This document shows, one piece after another, positions 1,030 through 54,613 of a DNA stretch of 54,613 bases. A program made the position numbers and the translations under genes. Every line of letters starts with the position of its first letter. The first letter of the stretch is position 1. Source of the stretch: Planctomycetota bacterium. GTDB taxonomy: Bacteria; Planctomycetota; Planctomycetia; Pirellulales; PLA5. A model generated the notes under the pieces. It searched no databases, was not told the origin of the DNA, and was given only the letters and a program-made list of their open reading frames with translations. The DNA lies in NCBI GenBank assembly GCA_003576845.1, contig QEVJ01000021.1:1-54613 (forward strand), in the 5' to 3' direction.

Positions 1030-1317
1030 TCATGTCGTCGCCTTTTCTGGGGACTCCGTGCTCGCAACGGACTCTTCCATTGGCGGCGGGACGAACTTCG
1101 GCGCGGTCGGTTCGTCGCGCTCTTCGTAGGTCGAGCGGCTCGGCGTCGGCGGCGAGTATTCCGCCCGCGTGAACTCGTCTTCGATTCCGCGGACGCCCTT
1201 GCGAAACTCGGTCACGCCCTTGCCCAGCGATCGCGCGACTTCCGGCAGCCGCTTGCCGAACAGCAGCACAGCAATCACCAGCACGATCATCATGTCCCAC
1301 GGTCCCAAGCCGAACAT
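1030..1317 (-). CDS. tatA: Twin-arginine translocase TatA/TatE-family subunit, first copy
   Basis: This 95-residue protein begins MFGLGPWDMMIVLVIAVLLF: one N-terminal membrane segment, the FG hinge (FGKRLPEVARSLG), then an amphipathic helix (FRKGVRGIEDEF). This is the standard TatA layout, which forms the Tat pore with TatC in the cytoplasmic membrane. The start at 1317 is preferred over longer in-frame starts because TatA begins exactly here and GAGGTG lies 6 nt upstream. The C-terminal tail is acidic and proline-rich. A second tatA lies about 490 bp upstream on the same strand. Likely Tat cargoes in this window are the Gfo/Idh enzyme, the cupin-like protein, the Rieske protein and the 155-residue protein at 30932. 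No tatC was seen. Confidence 0.93.
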   Translation of the reverse strand: MFGLGPWDMMIVLVIAVLLFGKRLPEVARSLGKGVTEFRKGVRGIEDEFTRAEYSPPTPSRSTYEERDEPTAPKFVPPPMEESVASTESPEKATT

Positions 1318-1428
1318 CGTTTCACCTCGTTGTTCTTTTTTGCGAAGCGCGTCAAAAGAATCGGACGATCCACGCCGCCACATTGGAATCGCGCGCAAAC
1401 CGCCCGCACCACTCGCTCCGCGCTCTCG

Positions 1429-2357: not shown

Positions 2358-3776
2358 ATGTTGCGTCAAGTTTCGCTTCAGAGCCTGCGTGGTCTCGCGG
2401 TCGCCGCGGCCCTCGCGGTCGCGTCAACCGTCTCCAGCGCCCAGAACGCTGCCGACCGCCCGCAGCGGGGCGATGCCTTCCTCATCTATCGCGAGACGCG
2501 CGTCGCACTGCCCGGCGGCAAGATGAGACTCCTCGCCGCGGGAACCTGGGGCAGGGCCGTCGCCATCGAGGGTCCAACGGTCGTGGGAATTGTCAACGGC
2601 GCGAAACTTTCCGTCCCGCTCGCCAATGTCGCCTGCGGCCGCTCGGGCGTCGCGCGCCTTTCCGCGGAAATCCGCGATCGGCCAACGGACTGGTCGCTCT
2701 ATCTGTACCGGGCCGACCTTCGCCGCAAGCTCAAGGACTACGATGCGGCCCTCGAAGACGTGGCCGCGATTCCCGAGGACGCGAGCGAATATCCAAGCCG
2801 CATGGTTTACCTCGGCGTCATCAAGCGCGATCAGGAAAACTGGCAAGGCGCCGTCGACGATCTCTCCGCTGCGCTCGAACTGGCGACAGCCGCCCGGGAC
2901 CGCCGGGCAATGGCCTACATCCACCTCTACCGCGGCCCGGCGTACTACCGTCTCGACAAGCTCGACGCCGCCATCGACGACATCGACGAGGCCATCAAAC
3001 TCGGCTACGACGACGCCGAAGTACATCTTTGGCGCGGGAAGCTGCTCGTCCAGAAAGGGCAGACCGATCTGGCGTTCGAGGCGTTTAAGAAGGCGAAGGA
3101 GCTGGATCCCTATGACAAGGAAGTCCGCGCCGCACTCGTTCAGCTTTACGAACGCTTGAATCTCTACGGCCTGGCAACCGACGAACTCAATGAGCTGGCG
3201 AAAGACGACACGAACGAACCCGCGGTGCTATGGACCCAGGCAAGAATCCACTACAAGAGCAAGCGATACGACGAAGCGCTGGCCGTCGCGGAAAAGCTCC
3301 TTGAAATCGAACCCGACCACGTCGGTGCGCGCGTGTGCCAGGCGCGAATCTACTTCGCCAAAGGCGACAAGCGGTCGCTCGAACGGATCGCGTTGCGACT
3401 CATGGCGCTAAAGCTGGACAACGGCGGCGATTTTGCGCAACGGGGGTTCTGCTTGGACGCCTGCGGCCTGACGGTCGATGCGATGAAGGACTTCGACCAA
3501 GCCATTGCCCTCGGCTATCGCGATAGCTCGGTTCATACCTGCCGCGCCCAGATCCATGCGCGACGCAGCGAATGGGAGAAAGTCGTCGCCGAAGCGACTG
3601 CGGCAATCAAGCTCGACGCGCGAAACAAAGACGCCTACTATGCCCGCGGCGTTGGCCTGCTATGGCTCAAGAAGACCGACGAGGGCGTCGCCGATTTCGA
3701 CAGAGCGATTCGAATCGAGCCGAATTTCGTGCGTGCATTGGTTGCGAGAGCCCTAACTTTCGCCAACACGAACTGA
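2358..3776 (+). CDS. Secreted TPR protein, N-terminal part ending at an in-frame TGA
   Basis: 472 residues. The ATG at 2358 is chosen over the one at 2325 because GGGAG lies 8 nt upstream and it places a clean signal peptide (LAVAAALAVASTVSSAQ) at the N-terminus. After about 80 residues of unrecognised sequence come at least eight tetratricopeptide repeats, such as YRLDKLDAAIDDIDEAIKLG and ALDPYDKEVRAAL-like units, which form protein-binding superhelices. Translation stops at TGA 3774-3776 in the middle of a repeat array. The same frame then continues with intact TPRs to 4556. This half is therefore probably a truncated product, a readthrough substrate, or a pseudogene half. Confidence 0.75.
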   Translation: MLRQVSLQSLRGLAVAAALAVASTVSSAQNAADRPQRGDAFLIYRETRVALPGGKMRLLAAGTWGRAVAIEGPTVVGIVNGAKLSVPLANVACGRSGVARLSAEIRDRPTDWSLYLYRADLRRKLKDYDAALEDVAAIPEDASEYPSRMVYLGVIKRDQENWQGAVDDLSAALELATAARDRRAMAYIHLYRGPAYYRLDKLDAAIDDIDEAIKLGYDDAEVHLWRGKLLVQKGQTDLAFEAFKKAKELDPYDKEVRAALVQLYERLNLYGLATDELNELAKDDTNEPAVLWTQARIHYKSKRYDEALAVAEKLLEIEPDHVGARVCQARIYFAKGDKRSLERIALRLMALKLDNGGDFAQRGFCLDACGLTVDAMKDFDQAIALGYRDSSVHTCRAQIHARRSEWEKVVAEATAAIKLDARNKDAYYARGVGLLWLKKTDEGVADFDRAIRIEPNFVRALVARALTFANTN

Positions 3777-4556
3777 AAAGGCGACGCCATCGCCGATCTG
3801 CGCACGGCGGTTGGACTTGATCCGGATAACGCCGATATTTCCATTGCCTTCCTGACACTGCTGGCCGACGAAAAGCGACTCGACGAATATGGAGTCGCTT
3901 GTTGCGATGCAATCCGTCGATTTCCCAATGACGCGTCGAACTATTGGCGACGCGCCAGTTACTGGGGTGGCATGGGGAACCACGCAATGGCGATTGCGGA
4001 CCTTACGGAGGCGATTCGGCTCGAGCCCAAGCGGGGCGATTTTCACTCGTGGCGCGCGGCTTCTTACCTGGAAGCAGCGCGCGTCGATTTAGCCATCGCC
4101 GATTTAGAAGCCGCAGAACGCCTTGGTCCACTCGATGTCCAAGGCACCTACGTCAAGGGCAAGATTCTCGAGTCGCAAGGGGATTACCGACAGGCGATCG
4201 AACTCTACCGCCGACTTACGCAAGGTTCGCCGCTCGCCGTTCCTGGGTTAGCTCGGCTCGCGCGAGTCTACGTGACGGCCGCGGACGACGCGATCCGCGA
4301 CGGCAAAAAAGCGCTCGAATACGCAGAGGAAGCATGCGCCGCCGTGCAATACCGGGAAGCCAAGCCGCTCTCTTACCTCGCCGCTGCGCATGCGGAGTTG
4401 GGTGATTTCGATAAGGCAGTAGAATCGCAAACCAAAGCGATCGCGCTGGCCACGGACGACGATCGAAAGGACCTGACCGAGCAATTGGAACTCTACAAAG
4501 CCAGAAAACCTTACCGCCAAACACCGACACCTCGCGTGGCCGCGAAAGTACAATAA
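3777..4556 (+). pseudogene. C-terminal TPR half downstream of the in-frame TGA
   Basis: In the same frame as the gene starting at 2358, 259 codons after the TGA still read as TPR protein: GDAIADLRTAVGLDP directly after the stop, then MAIADLTEAIRLEP and FDKAVESQTKAIAL further on. The frame ends at TAA 4554-4556. An internal ATG at 3972 could restart translation for 194 residues, but no clear ribosome-binding site precedes it. Joined, the protein would be about 732 residues. The sequence shows one stop and no frameshift. Whether this is a true nonsense mutation, readthrough or an assembly error is open. Confidence 0.7.
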
Positions 4557-4614
4557 CTGCGAGTGTTTCGTATCGTTCGAGAACCACACGATAATATCGA
4601 TCTCGCATCGCACC

Positions 4615-5271
4615 ATGTCCGCCCGTCGCCCCGCACCTTCGTCCAACGGTCACGCCTCCGCCGTCCGTCATCTTCGCCGCGTCGATCGCCGGTTGCGCGA
4701 GGTGATCGACGCCGTCGGTCCTTGCACCTTGCGGCCGCGGCGGGAGCGGTTTGCGATGTTGGCCCGGTCGATCGTTGCGCAGCAGATTTCCGTCGCGGCG
4801 GCCAAGACGATCAACGCCCGCGTCGTGGAACTGGTTGCGCCGCAGCGGCTTTCGGCCGAGGCGCTCTTGGCCGTTTCGCCGGCGCGGCTGCGGGCGGCGG
4901 GCGTGTCGCAGCAGAAGGCCGCCTATCTGGCCGATCTCGCCGCGCGCGTCGCCGGCGGCGAAGTGCGGCTTACCGGGCTCGCGCGCCGCGACGACGAGAC
5001 GATCATCGCCGACCTGACCAAGATCAAAGGCATCGGCCGCTGGACCGCGCAGATGTTCCTGATCTTCGCGCTCGGGCGCCCGGACGTGCTGGCGGAGGAC
5101 GACTTGGGTCTGCGCGGGGCGGTGCAACGGATTCACGCTTTGCCGGCGATGCCGTCGAAGGCCGAGTTCCGCGGGCTGGCCGCGCCGTGGAGCCCCTTCT
5201 CGACCGTCGCCAGTTGGTACTGCTGGCGAAGCGCGGACTTGAAGCTCATCGGCGGTCCGCGGCGGGGTTGA
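4615..5271 (+). CDS. HhH-GPD superfamily DNA-3-methyladenine glycosylase (AlkA-like)
   Basis: A 218-residue base-excision-repair enzyme that removes alkylated bases such as 3-methyladenine. It has the family opening FAMLARSIVAQQISVAAAKT and the helix-hairpin-helix KIKGIGRWTAQMF (about residues 136-148), which grips the DNA backbone. The GPD-region acidic pair D162-D163 in LAEDDLGLR contains the catalytic aspartate. The closing WSPFSTVASWYCWR is typical of the family. It lacks the extra N-terminal domain of E. coli AlkA, like the shorter bacterial AlkA2/MAG-type enzymes. It stands alone and converges on the deacetylase gene. Confidence 0.9.
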   Translation: MSARRPAPSSNGHASAVRHLRRVDRRLREVIDAVGPCTLRPRRERFAMLARSIVAQQISVAAAKTINARVVELVAPQRLSAEALLAVSPARLRAAGVSQQKAAYLADLAARVAGGEVRLTGLARRDDETIIADLTKIKGIGRWTAQMFLIFALGRPDVLAEDDLGLRGAVQRIHALPAMPSKAEFRGLAAPWSPFSTVASWYCWRSADLKLIGGPRRG

Positions 5272-5280
5272 GTCCGTTGC

Positions 5281-5385
5281 TAACACAGAGGACACGGAGG
5301 AAATGCAAAAGGCAGAATGAAGAATGCAAAATGCGGAGAATCTCCGGCGGTTCCTTTGCTTCTTTGCGGCTTTGCGGTTTGGGAA
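5281..5385. repeat. Mixed word repeats between convergent genes
   Basis: AACACAGAGGACACGGAGG (about 5281-5299) is followed by GAATGAAGAATGC-type words (5302-5338) and then by CTTTGCTTCTTTGCGGCTTT words (about 5355-5385). These three word families recur at 23963-24072 and 28661-28700. They fill almost the whole space between the glycosylase stop (5271) and the deacetylase stop (5395). Confidence 0.7.
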
Positions 5386-5394
5386 ACGCTCAAG

Positions 5395-6372
5395 CTACGT
5401 TGCGTCGAACGGCTGCGCGTGTTTCTCGATGAGCCGCCGGACCGAGTTGGCCACCAGCCGGTGACTCGCTTCGCTGTACCCGCCGCTCAAGAGCATGACG
5501 GTGGGAATGCCGCGCTGGCGGAGTTGGTCGACGACGAACAGGTCGCGCTCGAGCACGCCGTCGGCCGAGATGCTTAAGCCGCCCAGCGCGTCGCCGGCGT
5601 AGATGTCCGTACCGGCGTTGTAGATGGCCAGGCCAACCGGTTCGCCGCGGACGATCGAATCGAGAAAGCCCGGCAAACGGTCGTGCAGATGGCCTAAGTA
5701 CTCGTCGTCGCGACAACCGGGCCACACCGGCACGTCGCAGTCGATTCGCTCGCGGGCCAGCCGGTCGTAAGCGGGATAGATTCCGGCGTTGTAAACGTCG
5801 AACAGAAACGCCCGCGGGTCGTGCAGGAAGCAATGACTCACGCCGTTGCCCTGATGGGCGTCGAGATCGACGTAGGCGATGCGGCGGTTCTCGCCGAGCA
5901 GGCCCTCGCGCCGCAACATCGCGACGGCAATCGCGATGTCGGCATAAGAACAGAATCCTTCCGCGCCGTCGGGCTTGGCATGATGATAGCCGCCGCTGAG
6001 ATTGACGGCCAAACCCGCCGCGAGCGCTTCGCGAGCCGCGACGACCGTGCCCATCGTCGCCCACCGCATCGGCCGCAGAACCAACTTGTCGGTCAGCCAC
6101 GCCGGCAGCTTCGCCACCAGCGGAACCTCGACCGCTTGGGCGAGATAAGCCGGAGCGCGGAGCTTGTCGAGGTATTCGGCCGTATGCACCAGCAGCAACT
6201 CGTCGCGGTGAATCGCGCGCGGCGGAGCGATGGTCAAGTCACCGAGCCGGCGGCCGAACCACTCGCGAATCAGCTTGTACGCGCGGCTGTACTTGCGAAG
6301 ATCGAAAGGATGCAACCCGCGCCCGAGATAATGGGCGGGGAGGTCGTACTTGGGGGTGTAGACGATGCGCAT
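5395..6372 (-). CDS. Histone deacetylase family protein (acetoin-utilisation AcuC / class IV HDAC-like)
   Basis: A 325-residue zinc-dependent deacylase. The catalytic histidine pair is H130-H131 in GGYHHAKPDGAEGF. The metal site is DLDAHQGNG (D171, H173) with D256 in NAGTDIYAGD, and the glycine loop is LLSGGY. The ATG at 6372 is used because the protein then opens with MRIVYTPKYDL as in relatives. Bacterial members remove acetyl groups from proteins or polyamines, and the substrate here is unknown. All metal and catalytic residues are present, so the enzyme should be active. It ends in word repeats shared with the convergent glycosylase gene. Confidence 0.92.
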   Translation of the reverse strand: MRIVYTPKYDLPAHYLGRGLHPFDLRKYSRAYKLIREWFGRRLGDLTIAPPRAIHRDELLLVHTAEYLDKLRAPAYLAQAVEVPLVAKLPAWLTDKLVLRPMRWATMGTVVAAREALAAGLAVNLSGGYHHAKPDGAEGFCSYADIAIAVAMLRREGLLGENRRIAYVDLDAHQGNGVSHCFLHDPRAFLFDVYNAGIYPAYDRLARERIDCDVPVWPGCRDDEYLGHLHDRLPGFLDSIVRGEPVGLAIYNAGTDIYAGDALGGLSISADGVLERDLFVVDQLRQRGIPTVMLLSGGYSEASHRLVANSVRRLIEKHAQPFDAT

Positions 6373-6407
6373 GAGTGCCCGAGGTCTGACCGCCCATTGC
6401 ATCGGGG

Positions 6408-8201
6408 TTACTTTCGCGGCGCACCGACGCGAATCACCAGATCGTCTGGTTTTTCCGGATCGTCCTCTTGAGCCATCACGTCGTCGTCAGACTCCTCGGC
6501 GTCCGCGATACTCGTCGTATCGACCAGCGGTTGCGCCGTCGCGCCGCCGTCGTCCCGGCCATTGACGCCCACGCTGTACAGCTCGAACCCACCATCGTCC
6601 CGCCGCTTGTACTTGAGGGGTCCGTCGCCAAAATCGTCCGCCGGAACCGCTTCGAGAAACGCCGGCACGAGCTGGTCGAGCGACTTGGGATACTCTCCGC
6701 GGGCGGCGCGATAACGGGTGAGGCCGAATATAACGGGAACCAAACCGTACTCCGTGTTGCGTTGCTGATCGACAGTGATGACTGAATTCATGACCGGCCG
6801 GAGTTGGCTCGCCACGATCGTGCCCAAGAGCTGTCCAACGGCCTTTCGTTGCGCTGGAAACTCAAGTGTGGTGATGGAAAGCAACATCGCGGCCGCATTT
6901 ATTGGTCGACCACGCCGGTCCGCCCTCTCGTTCATTTCCTCAAGCGCTCGGAGACGCGCTCGGCGCGTCGCGAGGCGCGAAATTCTCTCTAATTCGTCGT
7001 GCACGACATTGATGCTGCGGAATGCTGCGTCCCAATCGATTGCGGCAGTCGTCACCCAACGCGGATAACGATGCGACCTCAGCGCCCGTAGCTTCGATGA
7101 GACGGACGGCGAAAACTCCGGATACGCAGCTTGGGTTCCGCGAAATACTGCGTTCATCGCCTCGAGAGAAAACGTGCGTTCCGTCGTCTCGAAGCACTCG
7201 ACTAATGGCATGTCGGCGGACGCCTCGCGCCACCCGCGCGCCATGCGCTCGATCTGGTCGCGGGATGCATTGCCGTAAACGAGCAATCCAATTGCCGCCG
7301 CAGAAGCTTGGCGTCGCGCTGCCATGCCGAGCATATGGTCGATGACCATGCCTCCTTCGGCGACTCGATGGGCCCATCGTCGCGCGGCAAGGATGTCGTT
7401 CCACGAAGCTTCTAGACGCGACTCGGCGCAATGGCGCATCGCCCGAACAGTCAGGGCTTGAGCGATCGAGAGTACCGAGAAGGAAATCCCGTCCGGTCGG
7501 AGAAGCCCGTCGATGCCCGCGCCGCTTTCGAGCGGAACATAGAACTGCGGGCGCTCGCTGCCGGACACGCACTGGTCAAGCGGCGTCTCGATGTGCTTCA
7601 ACCAAGCGTCGAGCAATGGCTCGTCGCTCCCAGTCCAGGGAATCTGTTGGCAGCGTTCCAGCGTTTCCGAAAAGTCAATCGGTTTCTTGAGAAGCTCGCC
7701 GAGAACGTCTCGCTTCAAGCCGATTCGCTTCGCCGCGGCGTCTGGGTCGCGGTCGTATCGTTCGCCCAGATCGAAAACAAAACGGTCAAACCGCACGAAG
7801 TACTGGCCATGTTCCGGCACCGGTTCGATGCCAAGGCGTTTACAAAGGCTCGCAAATTTTTCGTAGTCGGCATCGCGTCGTCCCACAGCATTGACCAACA
7901 CCACCGCCGCGTTGTTCTCCGGCGTGACGCCTTTGCCGTAGCGCGCATTGAGCGCCGCGGCGTAGTCGACCAGGCCATCCGCTGCGAGCGGTTCCGTGAA
8001 GAACGTCACTTCGCGCGACAGCGTCAACCGTGGACGCGGCGTGTTGGCGTCCGACGGCTTCTCGGTTTCGTCGCCGAACGCAACTGACCCGGCGAGAATC
8101 GAAACGGCGATGGTGAACGCGCCAGCGCCTGCTAGCACACAGAACGTTCCGCCACCACGGTCAACTACGTTGCGCCGCACGCAATCACTTCGCATCGTCA
8201 T
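6408..8201 (-). CDS. Secreted protein of unknown function with a pseudopilin-like C-terminal segment
   Basis: 597 residues (or 595 from the second ATG at 8195). An N-terminal hydrophobic segment (GAFTIAVSILAGSVAFGDE) looks like a signal peptide. The body is helical and I do not recognise it. Residues near 515-560 read RAARGEYPKSLDQLVPAFLE, then DDFGDGPLKYK, then FELYSVGVNGRDDGG. This pattern matches the C-terminal region of type II pseudopilins (sequence, YP.SL..LVP, D.FG.PL.Y, Y.SVG.DG..DGG), which also occurs as a stand-alone tail in planctomycete proteins. The gene overlaps the upstream gene by 17 bp, so the two are cotranscribed. Confidence 0.72.
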   Translation of the reverse strand: MTMRSDCVRRNVVDRGGGTFCVLAGAGAFTIAVSILAGSVAFGDETEKPSDANTPRPRLTLSREVTFFTEPLAADGLVDYAAALNARYGKGVTPENNAAVVLVNAVGRRDADYEKFASLCKRLGIEPVPEHGQYFVRFDRFVFDLGERYDRDPDAAAKRIGLKRDVLGELLKKPIDFSETLERCQQIPWTGSDEPLLDAWLKHIETPLDQCVSGSERPQFYVPLESGAGIDGLLRPDGISFSVLSIAQALTVRAMRHCAESRLEASWNDILAARRWAHRVAEGGMVIDHMLGMAARRQASAAAIGLLVYGNASRDQIERMARGWREASADMPLVECFETTERTFSLEAMNAVFRGTQAAYPEFSPSVSSKLRALRSHRYPRWVTTAAIDWDAAFRSINVVHDELERISRLATRRARLRALEEMNERADRRGRPINAAAMLLSITTLEFPAQRKAVGQLLGTIVASQLRPVMNSVITVDQQRNTEYGLVPVIFGLTRYRAARGEYPKSLDQLVPAFLEAVPADDFGDGPLKYKRRDDGGFELYSVGVNGRDDGGATAQPLVDTTSIADAEESDDDVMAQEDDPEKPDDLVIRVGAPRK

Positions 8202-8571
8202 TGCGGTCGAACTCGAATTTGAAGATATGCTCCCCCCGCCGCTGCTGGACGATCGCGCGAAACCGGCGGCCGACGGCTTCGTCGGCCGGAACGCCGAACG
8301 TCCGCACTGGGCTGTGCATGTAGAGCAACACGCGCCGAGGTTTGTCGCCCTCCTTCGCCACTACGCGCCCGACGGCGACCCAATCCTGAAAATGATTGCA
8401 AATCCCCGACGGTTGGACGGAAACGATTTCGACGTCGATCGCCGGAACTTTCTGCGACGCGGAACCATGCCAAACGCTCGTTTCGTCCGCCCCATTCGCA
8501 GTCGCGGCCGAACAACAACCGAAGGTCAACAAGCACACAACGCGTGCCATGCGGGCATACAACATAAACAT
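8185..8571 (-). CDS. Small secreted protein of unknown function
   Basis: 128 residues from the ATG at 8571, with GGGGAG about 7 nt upstream; ATGs at 8565 and 8550 are alternatives. The N-terminus (MARVVCLLTFGCCSAATANGAD) is a signal peptide, and its CC could be a lipoprotein site, though the match is poor. The mature part is mostly beta, with DWVAVGRVVAKEGDKPRRVL and VGRRFRAIVQQRRGEHIF, suggesting a small beta-barrel. No family is recognised. It sits between the cupin-like gene and the 597-residue gene, overlapping the latter by 17 bp. Confidence 0.65.
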   Translation of the reverse strand: MFMLYARMARVVCLLTFGCCSAATANGADETSVWHGSASQKVPAIDVEIVSVQPSGICNHFQDWVAVGRVVAKEGDKPRRVLLYMHSPVRTFGVPADEAVGRRFRAIVQQRRGEHIFKFEFDRNDDAK

Positions 8572-18603: not shown

Positions 18604-19050
18604 CGTTCTCCTTTCGAGACGCGCAAAGAAAATCGCAACGTGTCCGTGGATTGACGTGAGTACCGGCGGGGTCGCGCAGCATCTTCTCGGCCCAATCGGC
18701 CAGAGTCCGATCGAGCGCAAGGAGACACGGCGAACCGCAGGCGTTCGCTCCGCGCGGACGAACCGCGCACAACTTGGACGTGATACGAACAGGAAGTGAG
18801 CTACTGACGAGTCAGACGAGGGCGGGAGAAATACCGGAAGCGAAAATGCCGGTCAAGGGCAGTTGCCAAGAAAAAACGCCGCCGATAACCCGTTCTTGAG
18901 ACGATCGCCGAGCGTGCTTCGCGGTATCAACGGGTGGCGCGCGATAGGTTCGAGAAGGGAGATCGGGCGTCAAGTGCTAGTGGACAGTCAGCAGTGGGCA
19001 GATAGCAACTCGCCCACGGCCCGCCGCCCGCTGCCCACTGCTCACCCTCT
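18604..19050. other. 447-bp gap upstream of the secretin gene
   Basis: No gene is supported. It should hold the secretin promoter, but no convincing -35/-10 pair was found. The left end carries the AGGAGA ribosome-binding site (about 18610-18615). The right end carries the inverted CAGTGGGCAG words at 18977-19047, next to the oxidoreductase stop. Confidence 0.5.
18977..19047. repeat. Inverted pair of CAGTGGGCAG word repeats
   Basis: AGCAGTGGGCAG (18990-19001) pairs exactly with CTGCCCACTGCT (19031-19042), with further related words on both sides. It starts 4-5 nt after the stop of the Gfo/Idh gene (19051). The same words occur at 34604-34664, 45137-45200 and 51972-52020. Confidence 0.82.
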
Positions 19051-33764: not shown

Positions 33765-33873
33765 GTGAATGGAGAATGGTGAGTTGTGAATGGTGAACGA
33801 GGAATGCGATTCGCGCGGTCTACGAGACTTCTCGTTTACGATTCACCATTCACCATTTTCCATTCGCAATTCC
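33765..33873. repeat. Large inverted pair of GAATGGTGAATGG words between Rieske and cytochrome b genes
   Basis: Words at about 33770-33811 (GAATTGTGAATGGAGAATGG and on) pair with their inverse at about 33831-33873 (CTCGTTTACGATTCACCATT and on) with few mismatches. The repeat starts 2-3 nt after the Rieske stop and fills most of the 166-bp gap to cytochrome b, so it would form a long hairpin in a shared transcript. Confidence 0.8.
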
Positions 33874-34603: not shown

Positions 34604-34664
34604 CGAGTGGACGGTGGGCGGTGAGCAGTGGACAGAAAACTGTCCACTGCCCACTGTCCATTCC
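34604..34664. repeat. Inverted CAGTGGACAG words at the nrnA-like stop codon
   Basis: GCAGTGGACAG (34625-34635), loop AAAA, CTGTCCACTGC (34640-34650): an exact 11-bp hairpin, flanked by further CAGTGG/CCACTG words. It begins about 5 nt after the TAA at 34666-34668. Confidence 0.82.
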
Positions 34665-36966: not shown

Positions 36967-36989
36967 CACTGCTGGACAAGCCAGCAGTG
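36967..36989. repeat. Single hairpin element E after the diguanylate cyclase gene
   Basis: CACTGCTGG (36967-36975), loop ACAAG, CCAGCAGTG (36981-36989): a perfect 9-bp stem, 21 nt after the stop. The loop ACAAG is the one in the right arm of element D. I see no inverted partner within 60 bp. No U-run follows, so it is not a standard terminator. Confidence 0.75.
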
Positions 36990-37031
36990 GCGCCCATTTC
37001 TCAGCACGGACGCCGCATTAGCGAGGTGTGG

Positions 37032-51971: not shown

Positions 51972-52020
51972 GGCAGTGGGCAGTGAAGAGTGGGCAGTGG
52001 TTCACTGCCCACTGCCCGCT
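51972..52020. repeat. Inverted CAGTGGGCAGTG words abutting a stop codon
   Basis: GGCAGTGGGCAGTGAA (51972-51987) pairs exactly over 16 bp with TTCACTGCCCACTGCC (52001-52016), a hairpin with a 13-nt loop. On the minus strand the words start at the TAG of the DUF1801 gene (52019-52021). Confidence 0.85.
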
Positions 52021-52471
52021 AACCACTCTGCCGTCGCTTCTTTGTCCGGCCTGGTAACTTGGGCTTTCGGGCCGATTTGCGCGTCGTGCCGACGGCTTTC
52101 GTCGACCGCGGCGGCTTTGCGGCGATTTCGCCGAGCCGGGCCTCGATGAGCTTTCGCACGAGCGCGGCGGGAAGCGGCTTGGCGGCCGTGAAGTGGATCG
52201 AACCTTTGGTCGTCTCGAACCCCGCGAGGTCGGTCCGCAGCACGCTGACGACTTTGCCGCTCATCGGGTAGAACGAGCAGTGGTTTTTGCTCGCGCCGAA
52301 GCCGGCGACCGATTTGTCGCCGACGCGGAACGCCGGCACGCCGTAGTTCAGACATTCCTCGGCCTGCGGGACGGCGGCGCGAATCGTCTTGCGGAGCCTT
52401 TCGAGGACCGCTCGCTGGTCGACGGGTACGGCGGCGAGGTAGTCGTCGATCGTCGTCGGTTTGGCGGGCAT
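52019..52471 (-). CDS. DUF1801 / YdhG-like protein
   Basis: 150 residues, with the family core TIDDYLAAVPVDQRAVLERL, EECLNYGVPAFRV, KNHCSFYPMSGKVV and KGSIHFTAAKPLPAALVRKL. YdhG-like and DUF1801 proteins adopt a frataxin-like fold, and some are proposed iron chaperones. The Lys/Arg-rich C-terminal tail (KSARKPKLPGRTKKRRQSG) could bind nucleic acid or be disordered. The TAG stop is joined to a hairpin repeat. Confidence 0.85.
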   Translation of the reverse strand: MPAKPTTIDDYLAAVPVDQRAVLERLRKTIRAAVPQAEECLNYGVPAFRVGDKSVAGFGASKNHCSFYPMSGKVVSVLRTDLAGFETTKGSIHFTAAKPLPAALVRKLIEARLGEIAAKPPRSTKAVGTTRKSARKPKLPGRTKKRRQSG

Positions 52472-52587
52472 GGTTTTTCACCGGATGATGTGCAGGCGGC
52501 GCGCGGCGGAACTCGAACGAGCATAGAACTTGCCGCGCGCGGGAACAACCACCACGCCCGTTGAATATCGCTTCTCGAGGACACTTC

Positions 52588-54594
52588 ATGCTTGCGAAAA
52601 CGGCATCGCGGCAACTGGCGAACGTCTGCGCGACGCTCTTGCCGCTTTCGGGCGACGATGCGGCGACTCTGGCGGCGGAGGTTCGCGATGCGGTGGCCGA
52701 GCTGCACGGCGACGAAGGGTCGGCGCGGCTTGCGGCGTCGCTGGCGATGCTGGACAACCGGCTCGTCAATCTCGTCGTCGCCGGAAGGTTCGCGCAGTTC
52801 TCGCGGCTCGCGGCGGACGAACGCGAGCGGTTGCTGCTGGCGTGGTCTACCGGCCGCAGCAAGCTCGGTCGCACCGTGTTTCAAGCCATCAAGCGGCTGG
52901 CGATGTTTCTGCATTACACCGAGCATCTGCCGGCCGGATACGATCCGGACTTTGGTATCGAGCCGCACGGCACAGCGACGCCGATTTGCCCAATGAGCGT
53001 CGACGGCGTCGAGCGGCTCTCGGCCGAAGTGCTCGTGATCGGCAGCGGGGCCGGCGGAGGCGTGGTGGCGGGCGAATTGGCCGCCGCCGGTTGCGGCGTG
53101 CTCGTCGTCGAGAAAGGCGGCGCTCCGCGCGAGGATGCCTATCCGCGCGACGAGCGCCGCGGGTTCGCCGAGCTGTACGAACGCCGCGGTTCGCTCACGA
53201 CCGTCGACCGCGGCGTGACGGTGCTCGCCGGGAGCACGCTCGGCGGCGGCACGACGGTCAACTGGATGACGAGCCTCGAACCGCCCAGGGACGTGCTCGA
53301 CGAATGGCGGTGCGACTTTGGCTTTGAGGCGGCGACGTCGGCGGAGTTTCGCGCGAGTCTGGCGGCCGTCGCGGCGCGGCTGAACGTCAACGTCGACGAA
53401 AGCCCCGCGACGGCCCAGAACGCGGAACTCGAACGCGGTTGCCGAGCGCTCGGCTATCGCGTGGCGGTGATCCCGCGAAACGCCAAGGGTTGCACGACGT
53501 GCGATACGTGCTCGTTCGGCTGTCGCCACGGCGGCAAGCAGGACATGCGGCGGACGTACCTGGCCGATGCGGCGGCGCGCGGTGCGCGAATTCTCGTGAA
53601 CGCGGAAGTCGTGCGCGTCACGCACGCGGCGGGCGTCGTCGATGGCGCGGAACTGATTGCCACGGACAGCAGCGGCAATCGGCGGACAATTCGCGTGACG
53701 GCGAAAATCATCGTCGTGGCGGCCGGTTCGATTCACACGCCGGCGGTGTTGTTGCGTTCCGGCTTGACGAATCGGAACATCGGCGCGAACTTGCACTTGC
53801 ACCCGACGACGGCCGTGTGCGGCGAGTTCGCCGAGCCGATCCGGTCGTGGTCCGGCGCGCCGCAGACGCGGTATTGCGACGAGTTCGCCGATCTCGACGG
53901 CCGCGGACACGGCGTGCGGCTGGAAGTGAGTCCGGCCCATCCGGGTTTGTGGGGCTTGGGACTCGCGTGGCCGTCGCAGAGTGAACATCGGCGGCGGATG
54001 GAGCGCGTGGCGCATCTGGCGAACATCATCGTGCTCGCGCGCGACGAATACGCCGGCCGCGTGACGGTCGATCGGCAGGGAAGGCCCGAGCTTCGCTATC
54101 GGATTGCACCGGGCGATGCGCGGCGGTTGCTGCGCGGGGCGGTCGAGGCGCTCCGCGTGCTCGTCGCGGCCGGAGCGACCGAAGTGCTCAGCCCGCATCA
54201 GAAGAAGCTCGCGTTTCGACCTGCTGACTCGGGTGGCACGGGTGGCTTGCCCACCCGTGCTGCATTGGATACTCCATCGGCCTCGCTCACGGGTGGACAA
54301 GCCACCTGTGCCACCCGACGCGGCGACGCACTTGAGCGATACTTGGAGCGGGTCGCGGCGGCCGGTTGGCGGGCGAACGACCTCGGCCTGTTCAGTGCCC
54401 ACCAGTTATCGAGTTGCCGGATTGCGGCGAGTGCTCGGCACGGCGCGGTTCGGCCCGACGGCCGTTCGCACGAAGTCAAGAACCTCTACGTCGGCGACGG
54501 GAGCCTGATGCCGACGGCCTGCGGCGTGAACCCGATGCTCACGATCGCGGCGCTCGCCCACCACATCGCCCAACAAATCAAAGCAATGCTCTAA
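52588..54594 (+). CDS. GMC-family FAD oxidoreductase (fatty-alcohol oxidase-like), with a palindromic element in frame
   Basis: 668 residues from the ATG at 52588, with GAGG 7 nt upstream. The first 130 residues form a helical extra domain. FAD binding is GSGAGGGVVAGELAAAGCGV (about 150), and TTVNWMTSLEPP matches the flavin loop. A Cys-rich motif, CTTCDTCSFGC, is like that of long-chain alcohol oxidases. The end has HQLSSCRIA (active-site His) and VNPMLTIAALAHHIAQQI. Element D (54230-54317) lies in frame at about residues 547-577, adding a Gly/Thr-rich stretch (SGGTGGLPTRAAL) before the C-terminal catalytic part. The TAA stop is part of an AACCTC word repeat. Confidence 0.88.
   Translation: MLAKTASRQLANVCATLLPLSGDDAATLAAEVRDAVAELHGDEGSARLAASLAMLDNRLVNLVVAGRFAQFSRLAADERERLLLAWSTGRSKLGRTVFQAIKRLAMFLHYTEHLPAGYDPDFGIEPHGTATPICPMSVDGVERLSAEVLVIGSGAGGGVVAGELAAAGCGVLVVEKGGAPREDAYPRDERRGFAELYERRGSLTTVDRGVTVLAGSTLGGGTTVNWMTSLEPPRDVLDEWRCDFGFEAATSAEFRASLAAVAARLNVNVDESPATAQNAELERGCRALGYRVAVIPRNAKGCTTCDTCSFGCRHGGKQDMRRTYLADAAARGARILVNAEVVRVTHAAGVVDGAELIATDSSGNRRTIRVTAKIIVVAAGSIHTPAVLLRSGLTNRNIGANLHLHPTTAVCGEFAEPIRSWSGAPQTRYCDEFADLDGRGHGVRLEVSPAHPGLWGLGLAWPSQSEHRRRMERVAHLANIIVLARDEYAGRVTVDRQGRPELRYRIAPGDARRLLRGAVEALRVLVAAGATEVLSPHQKKLAFRPADSGGTGGLPTRAALDTPSASLTGGQATCATRRGDALERYLERVAAAGWRANDLGLFSAHQLSSCRIAASARHGAVRPDGRSHEVKNLYVGDGSLMPTACGVNPMLTIAALAHHIAQQIKAML
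54230..54317. repeat. Dual-hairpin palindromic element D inside the GMC oxidoreductase gene
   Basis: Left arm 54230-54260 contains CACGGGTGG, loop CTTGC, CCACCCGTG. Right arm 54288-54317 is the inverse with two changes (CACGGGTGG-ACAAG-CCACCTGTG). The whole is 88 bp and keeps the reading frame with no stop, adding about 30 codons. Confidence 0.87.
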
Positions 54595-54613
54595 CCTCCA
54601 ACCTCTAACCTCC
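54592..54613. repeat. AACCTCTAACCTCC word repeat at the GMC stop codon
   Basis: TAACCTCCAACCTCTAACCT begins with the TAA stop of the GMC gene (54592-54594) and runs to the window end. The same words form the hairpin at 941-1025. Confidence 0.8.

Follow-up and report, generated by a model that had tools for sequence, protein, structure and literature searches.

The GMC oxidoreductase gene near the end of the window (the whole stretch of 54,613 nucleotides that was analysed) contains a REPIN, that is, a doublet of inverted REP sequences (Bertels and Rainey, 2011; PMC3116915), which is read through in an intact frame and for which the corresponding site in a congener is empty. The element belongs to a multi-copy family that is linked to a RAYT gene in the same genome. 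We consider it very probable (roughly 0.88) that it was moved as a non-autonomous unit by a RAYT and has survived in a length-variable loop of the protein, in a tolerated phase.

An inverted-repeat search identified two arms of 31 nt each (54229-54259 and 54288-54318), which are 94% complementary and 28 nt apart. Comparison with other family copies placed the conserved core (GGGTGG...CCACCC, 86 nt, not assigned to a strand) at 54231-54316, with pairing that continues for two bases on each side (54229-54318). The preliminary description, which gave the palindromic element as 54230-54317, was right about the palindrome and the open frame, but the conserved core is slightly shorter. The core consists of two 29-nt REP hairpins, inverted around a 28-nt spacer, and the pair can be folded as one hairpin, as in other REPINs. 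The left arm (54231-54259, plus strand) matches the family pattern with 0 mismatches and carries the tetranucleotide GTGG, which immediately precedes the hairpin CACGGGTGG-CTTGC-CCACCCGTG, the right arm (54288-54316, minus strand) is an inverted copy with 1 mismatch, and the spacer (54260-54287) contains no stop codon in the frame of the gene. Folded as single-stranded DNA, the palindrome reaches -42.9 kcal/mol, as compared to -21.3 kcal/mol in dinucleotide shuffles (z -8.3, 0/200); the corresponding value for RNA is -76.3 (z -9.5). REPs have been defined as short palindromes with a GTAG or GTGG tetranucleotide located 0-2 nt 5' of the stem (PMC6006769), and the subfamily of the GMC-gene element has GTGG immediately before its CAC...GTG stem.

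The host gene (52588-54594, plus strand) encodes 668 amino acids from the ATG at 52588, in an open reading frame (52561-54594) that is free of stops through the palindrome, and both GMC_oxred_N (PF00732) and GMC_oxred_C (PF05199) score above the Pfam cut-offs in its product. The source contig ends 19 bases past the stop codon. The insert corresponds to about residues 548-577. The only close orthologue found is from the same genus, in genome G001 (77% identical), on a contig that appears identical to the public sequence JAJDEG010000473.1 from isolate OFTM264. This orthologue reads RPGDVAKSSDFERYL where the source genome reads RPADSGGTGG...CATRRGDALERYL (in full RPADSGGTGGLPTRAALDTPSASLTGGQATCATRRGDALERYL). 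Between the anchors DARRLLRG and SAHQLSS there are 93 residues in the source protein, 65 in the congener and 56-57 in distant homologues from the phylum (31-37% identity; only correctly oriented rows were counted). An AlphaFold2 model of the protein, built from a two-row alignment only, had a mean pLDDT of 34.5, too low for the insert to be placed in the fold.

The orthologue alignment had been proposed as a check in the preliminary description, with shared residues in distant genera as the outcome that would speak against an insertion. The congener was found to be 28 residues shorter and the distant homologues also lack the residues, which agrees with the original suggestion that a palindrome was inserted in frame and without a stop before the C-terminal catalytic segment. 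The suggested addition of about 30 codons is correct as an in-frame gain, but the net gain relative to the congener is 28 codons (+84 nt). That an 88-bp element must be accompanied by 2 extra bases or a target duplication was not borne out, given this net gain and flanking direct repeats at chance level throughout the family; the loop beside the element has drifted too far in the congener for the exact insertion edges to be fixed or for extra bases at the site to be decided.

A search of the whole source genome, a draft of 7.05 Mb in 289 contigs, recovered the 29-nt arm 93 times with no more than 3 mismatches, as compared to 0 for the reversed control pattern. The arms pair into 54 inverted doublets, most of which are 90 nt long, and each arm is a hairpin of its own with a CAC...GTG stem, a 5-nt loop and GTGG or GTGC directly 5' of it. 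They fall into two subfamilies, GGGTGGCAC[K]GGTGG..., to which the GMC-gene element belongs, and the more uniform GGGTGCCACTGCTGG..., which carries GTGC at the tag position and so lies outside the REP definition (PMC6006769). Many arms of the first subfamily are preceded by a CGTG/CGTC-like tetranucleotide (C in 20, G in 22 and T in 21 of 38 arms at positions -4 to -2); despite these bases further 5', the GTGG next to the stem is consistent with a tag of the GTRG type. The second subfamily is represented in the window by a single intergenic arm (GGGCGCCACTGCTGGCTTGTCCAGCAGTG; 36967-36995, minus strand), flanked by an FHA/GGDEF-like gene and a convergently oriented one, as judged from 1 mismatch to the subfamily pattern and from the sequence context. 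Only 3 of the 54 REPINs are located in genes supported by Pfam, so that the family is both numerous and mostly extragenic, where the assignment of the others as intergenic is based on codon scores and absent Pfam hits rather than on a full annotation. Of 97 genomes from the order, 33 contain exact arms, the source genome among them, with a maximum of 188 per genome.

Flanking direct repeats, the signature of a target-site duplication, occurred at the level of shuffled sequences over the 54 REPINs of the source genome and 26 REPINs of G076, a genome from another family. Relative to the empty sites, the net gains in length (+84, +102 and +111 nt) differ from the lengths of the REPINs (86, 92 and 83), which leaves the exact moved unit uncertain. 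The sequences TGTCAACGCTAA... and ...AAGGTTTGA recur as outer flanks of several second-subfamily REPINs in the source genome (L061-L079, L173-L192), so that in this subfamily a unit longer than the REPIN may be moved.

One of the four Y1_Tnp genes in the source genome is a RAYT (G000:C70:1370-1972) with a score of 87.2 against a cut-off of 80 for the NCBIfam model REP_Tyr_transpos, and it retains the HVH motif and the catalytic Tyr (Y..NP) when aligned with five relatives. REP arms of the family are located beside it at 1131-1159 (plus strand) and 1301-1329 (minus strand), the nearer one about 41 bp upstream. These REPs are on the upstream side only, have the loop variant CTTAAC and form a long element (199 nt), unlike the copy in the GMC gene. 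The other three Y1_Tnp genes are not flanked by the REP family of the GMC-gene element. RAYT relatives in other families likewise have REPs of the matching subfamily next to them, either on one side or on both (L144, L146-L148, L150, L151, L153-L155), while 0.2 REP hits would be expected by chance at these loci in shuffles. Across the 97 genomes, the RAYT clade is present in 11 of the 14 genomes with at least 9 arms, as compared to 11 of the 83 others (Fisher's test, p 1.8e-6). The linkage of the family to RAYT genes suggests that the RAYT of the source genome moves its REPINs. Against this stand the differences between the RAYT-flanking REPs and the copy in the GMC gene, and the congener G001 (92% complete), which has a few REPs and in which no match to the RAYT or to Y1_Tnp was found.

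We considered whether the segment could be an old lineage-specific loop of the protein, its DNA being palindromic by chance or through codon usage and not mobile. The length of the loop does vary across GMC homologues, but such a loop would hardly account for 93 occurrences of the same 29-nt arms in the genome, most of them extragenic and with no hit for the control, and the congener lacks the arms; contradicted by the multi-copy family, this is the least credible of the explanations. A classical MITE, with terminal inverted repeats, a DDE transposase and a target-site duplication, would also be a short inverted-repeat element in many copies. We regard this as very unlikely, since no target-site duplication is discernible over 80 copies, every arm forms a hairpin of its own that is tagged 5' with GTGG or GTGC, and the family is linked to a RAYT.

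Other copies within genes were sought by scanning stop-free open reading frames that span REPINs and filtering them by matches to Pfam, NCBIfam and PDB. In the source genome, the leucyl-tRNA synthetase LeuS (C192) carries a REPIN that encodes EGGTGGSPTSADLPIDVGSGLSTGGQATSGTP and lies just ahead of the editing domain. The LeuRS of T. thermophilus has no counterpart to this stretch, and the insert is missing in G001 and in other aligned members of the order. A polyketide/PUFA-type synthase (C117) contains a REPIN in the linker from the ketoacyl-synthase to the acyltransferase domain. Comparison of this synthase with that of the congener shows no clean indel, as the congener has a linker of similar length with its own REP-derived sequence. 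In G076, a REPIN is located in uvrA (LGGTGGSPTSVSKGVKKKPTGGQATSATQTK), and three congeners are without it. The synthase of G001 (L306, G001:C671; ORF 3346-8386, minus strand, 1680 aa) has four in-frame REP arms with 0-6 mismatches, compared to about 0.4 hits expected by chance at up to 9 mismatches in shuffles. A decayed arm in its ketoacyl-synthase to acyltransferase linker has 5 mismatches, as compared to at least 10 in 400 shuffles, and belongs to a different subfamily than the copy in the source genome. The four arms of this synthase are at different stages of decay.

Many REPINs of the source genome fall in long stop-free open reading frames. Of 20 such frames that were scanned besides the GMC gene, 18 had no Pfam hit and were treated as spurious; LeuS and the synthase were the two that did. 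Five further REPINs, whose flanks look coding on one strand but in different frames, were considered as broken genes and rejected, each being located between two different genes. A single REP arm before an Xer-like recombinase ORF and a REPIN between PhoH-like and HD-type genes were also rejected as coding.

A single codon phase is used by all 12 arms in the verified genes, which represent about 8 sites. This phase, G|GGT|GGC|ACN..., gives GGTGG... and, from the inverted arm, TGGQAT... or TAGQASSGT, so that the in-gene peptides are rich in Gly, Ser, Thr and Ala. Phases other than this one are also open: in the first subfamily of the source genome, the proportion of stop-free cases is 88%, 81% and 31% for the three phases. 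The probability that 8 sites agree by chance would be of the order of 0.003 if weighted by openness, or (1/3)^7, about 0.0005, with equal phases; these values are arithmetic on about 8 sites, of which those within one gene are perhaps not independent. The simplest reading is purifying selection, in which only loop or linker insertions in a single phase survive, namely the phase that avoids peptides rich in Trp, His and Cys or hydrophobic ones.

A functional role of the in-gene copies, selected either as flexible linkers or for an mRNA hairpin that slows the ribosome between domains, would account for the single frame of the 12 arms even though a second frame is stop-free at a similar frequency, for the strong mRNA hairpin, and for the synthase linkers of two congeners, each of which holds REP-derived peptides, though of different subfamilies. 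Mere tolerance in the least harmful frame predicts the same pattern, however, most orthologues lack the peptides, and the arms in G001 decay with up to 6 mismatches; we therefore find a function improbable. We would give somewhat more weight to a broader, speculative idea, in which the RAYT-linked family repeatedly supplies proteins with linker peptides in frame. As the REP sequence encodes a benign Gly/Ser/Thr/Ala-rich peptide in one frame, insertions in genes would be retained, or even favoured by selection, in that frame only, and would reshape loops and the linkers between domains in conserved proteins. About as improbable as a function is the opposite possibility that the insert renders the GMC enzyme inactive or unstable, the gene being a pseudogene in the making that is still open. 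The 28 extra residues are located near a conserved C-terminal catalytic stretch, but the frame is intact, the catalytic segment downstream of the insert is 84% identical to the congener, and the essential leuS gene carries the same kind of insert. The intact gene suggests that the enzyme tolerates the insert, and comparison with orthologues and with other family copies favours the earlier proposal that the Gly/Thr/Ala-rich peptide is a tolerated linker, most likely without a function of its own.

Movement driven by a RAYT is the accepted model for REPINs. In the mechanism that we propose, the two inverted REP hairpins would move together as one non-autonomous unit, with the RAYT, a single-strand transposase of the HUH/Y1 type, as the mobiliser, and copying would probably proceed through single-stranded DNA with no target-site duplication. 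The insertion in the GMC gene would have survived because it fell into a length-variable loop and because it is read in the only phase that lets both arms encode a flexible peptide rich in Gly, Ser, Thr and Ala. Gene-disrupting copies would be removed by selection, and the expected outcome would be that most REPINs are located between genes and a few in frame in loops or interdomain linkers (GMC oxidoreductase, LeuS, polyketide/PUFA-type synthase, UvrA).

We also compared the family to systems described previously. It resembles the known REPINs and RAYTs (PMC3116915) in having two inverted REPs with a spacer that form a hairpin, in its many, mostly extragenic copies and in its REP-flanked RAYT, but the planctomycete family, which was studied in one order, differs in REP sequence and in having several in-frame intragenic copies. 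In-frame intragenic REPs have already been published: according to the main-text passages of Di Nocera (2013; PMC3733652) considered here, intragenic dimers of GTAG and CGTC REPs code for 20-30 amino acids in many species, including in uvrA and tRNA synthetase genes. REP dimers inside open reading frames, and both of these kinds of genes, are common to the two studies, whereas the planctomycete arms are tagged with GTGG or GTGC and their intragenic copies all have one frame in common; these same passages make no mention of a uniform frame. The Rickettsia palindromic elements, of about 100 bp, are likewise palindromes located in frame within conserved genes (reviewed in PMC2229807). In R. conorii, these elements are described as having a CGTC tag, and the study concerned reports no RAYT with flanking CGTC repeats (PMC3733652). 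The planctomycete repeat differs from them in sequence and in its RAYT linkage, and it does not show the combination of a CGTC tag with no RAYT. In the openly accessible main texts covered, we found a description neither of the uniform phase nor of the linkage, in planctomycetes, to an identified clade of RAYTs.

While REPINs are usually treated as intergenic, a single RAYT-tied family has repeatedly found its way into conserved genes of at least three planctomycete genomes, always in one frame. It offers a system in which the gain of protein sequence from mobile palindromes can be tested, with tolerance in the least harmful frame set against selection, and it is a warning to annotators that residues coded by REPINs are not ancestral.

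Additional repeats were observed in the window. A second palindrome family (GTAGGAGGCGAATCCTTTCGCCGA...TCGGCGAAAGGATTCGCC) with the canonical GTAG tag is located at 1429-1496. This family also flanks another Y1_Tnp gene of the source genome (L054, about 2600-3700, G000:C26), and at least two RAYT/REPIN systems therefore coexist in this genome. Repeats of the type CTCTAACCTCCAACCTC were found at 941-1023 and at 54588-54613, where the end of the contig falls inside a repeat just past the GMC gene. Intergenic inverted repeats with GAATGGTGAAT-like or CACTGCCCACTG-like units, which probably represent further repeat families, were identified at 33767-33872, 34615-34660, 51972-52027 and 18987-19045.
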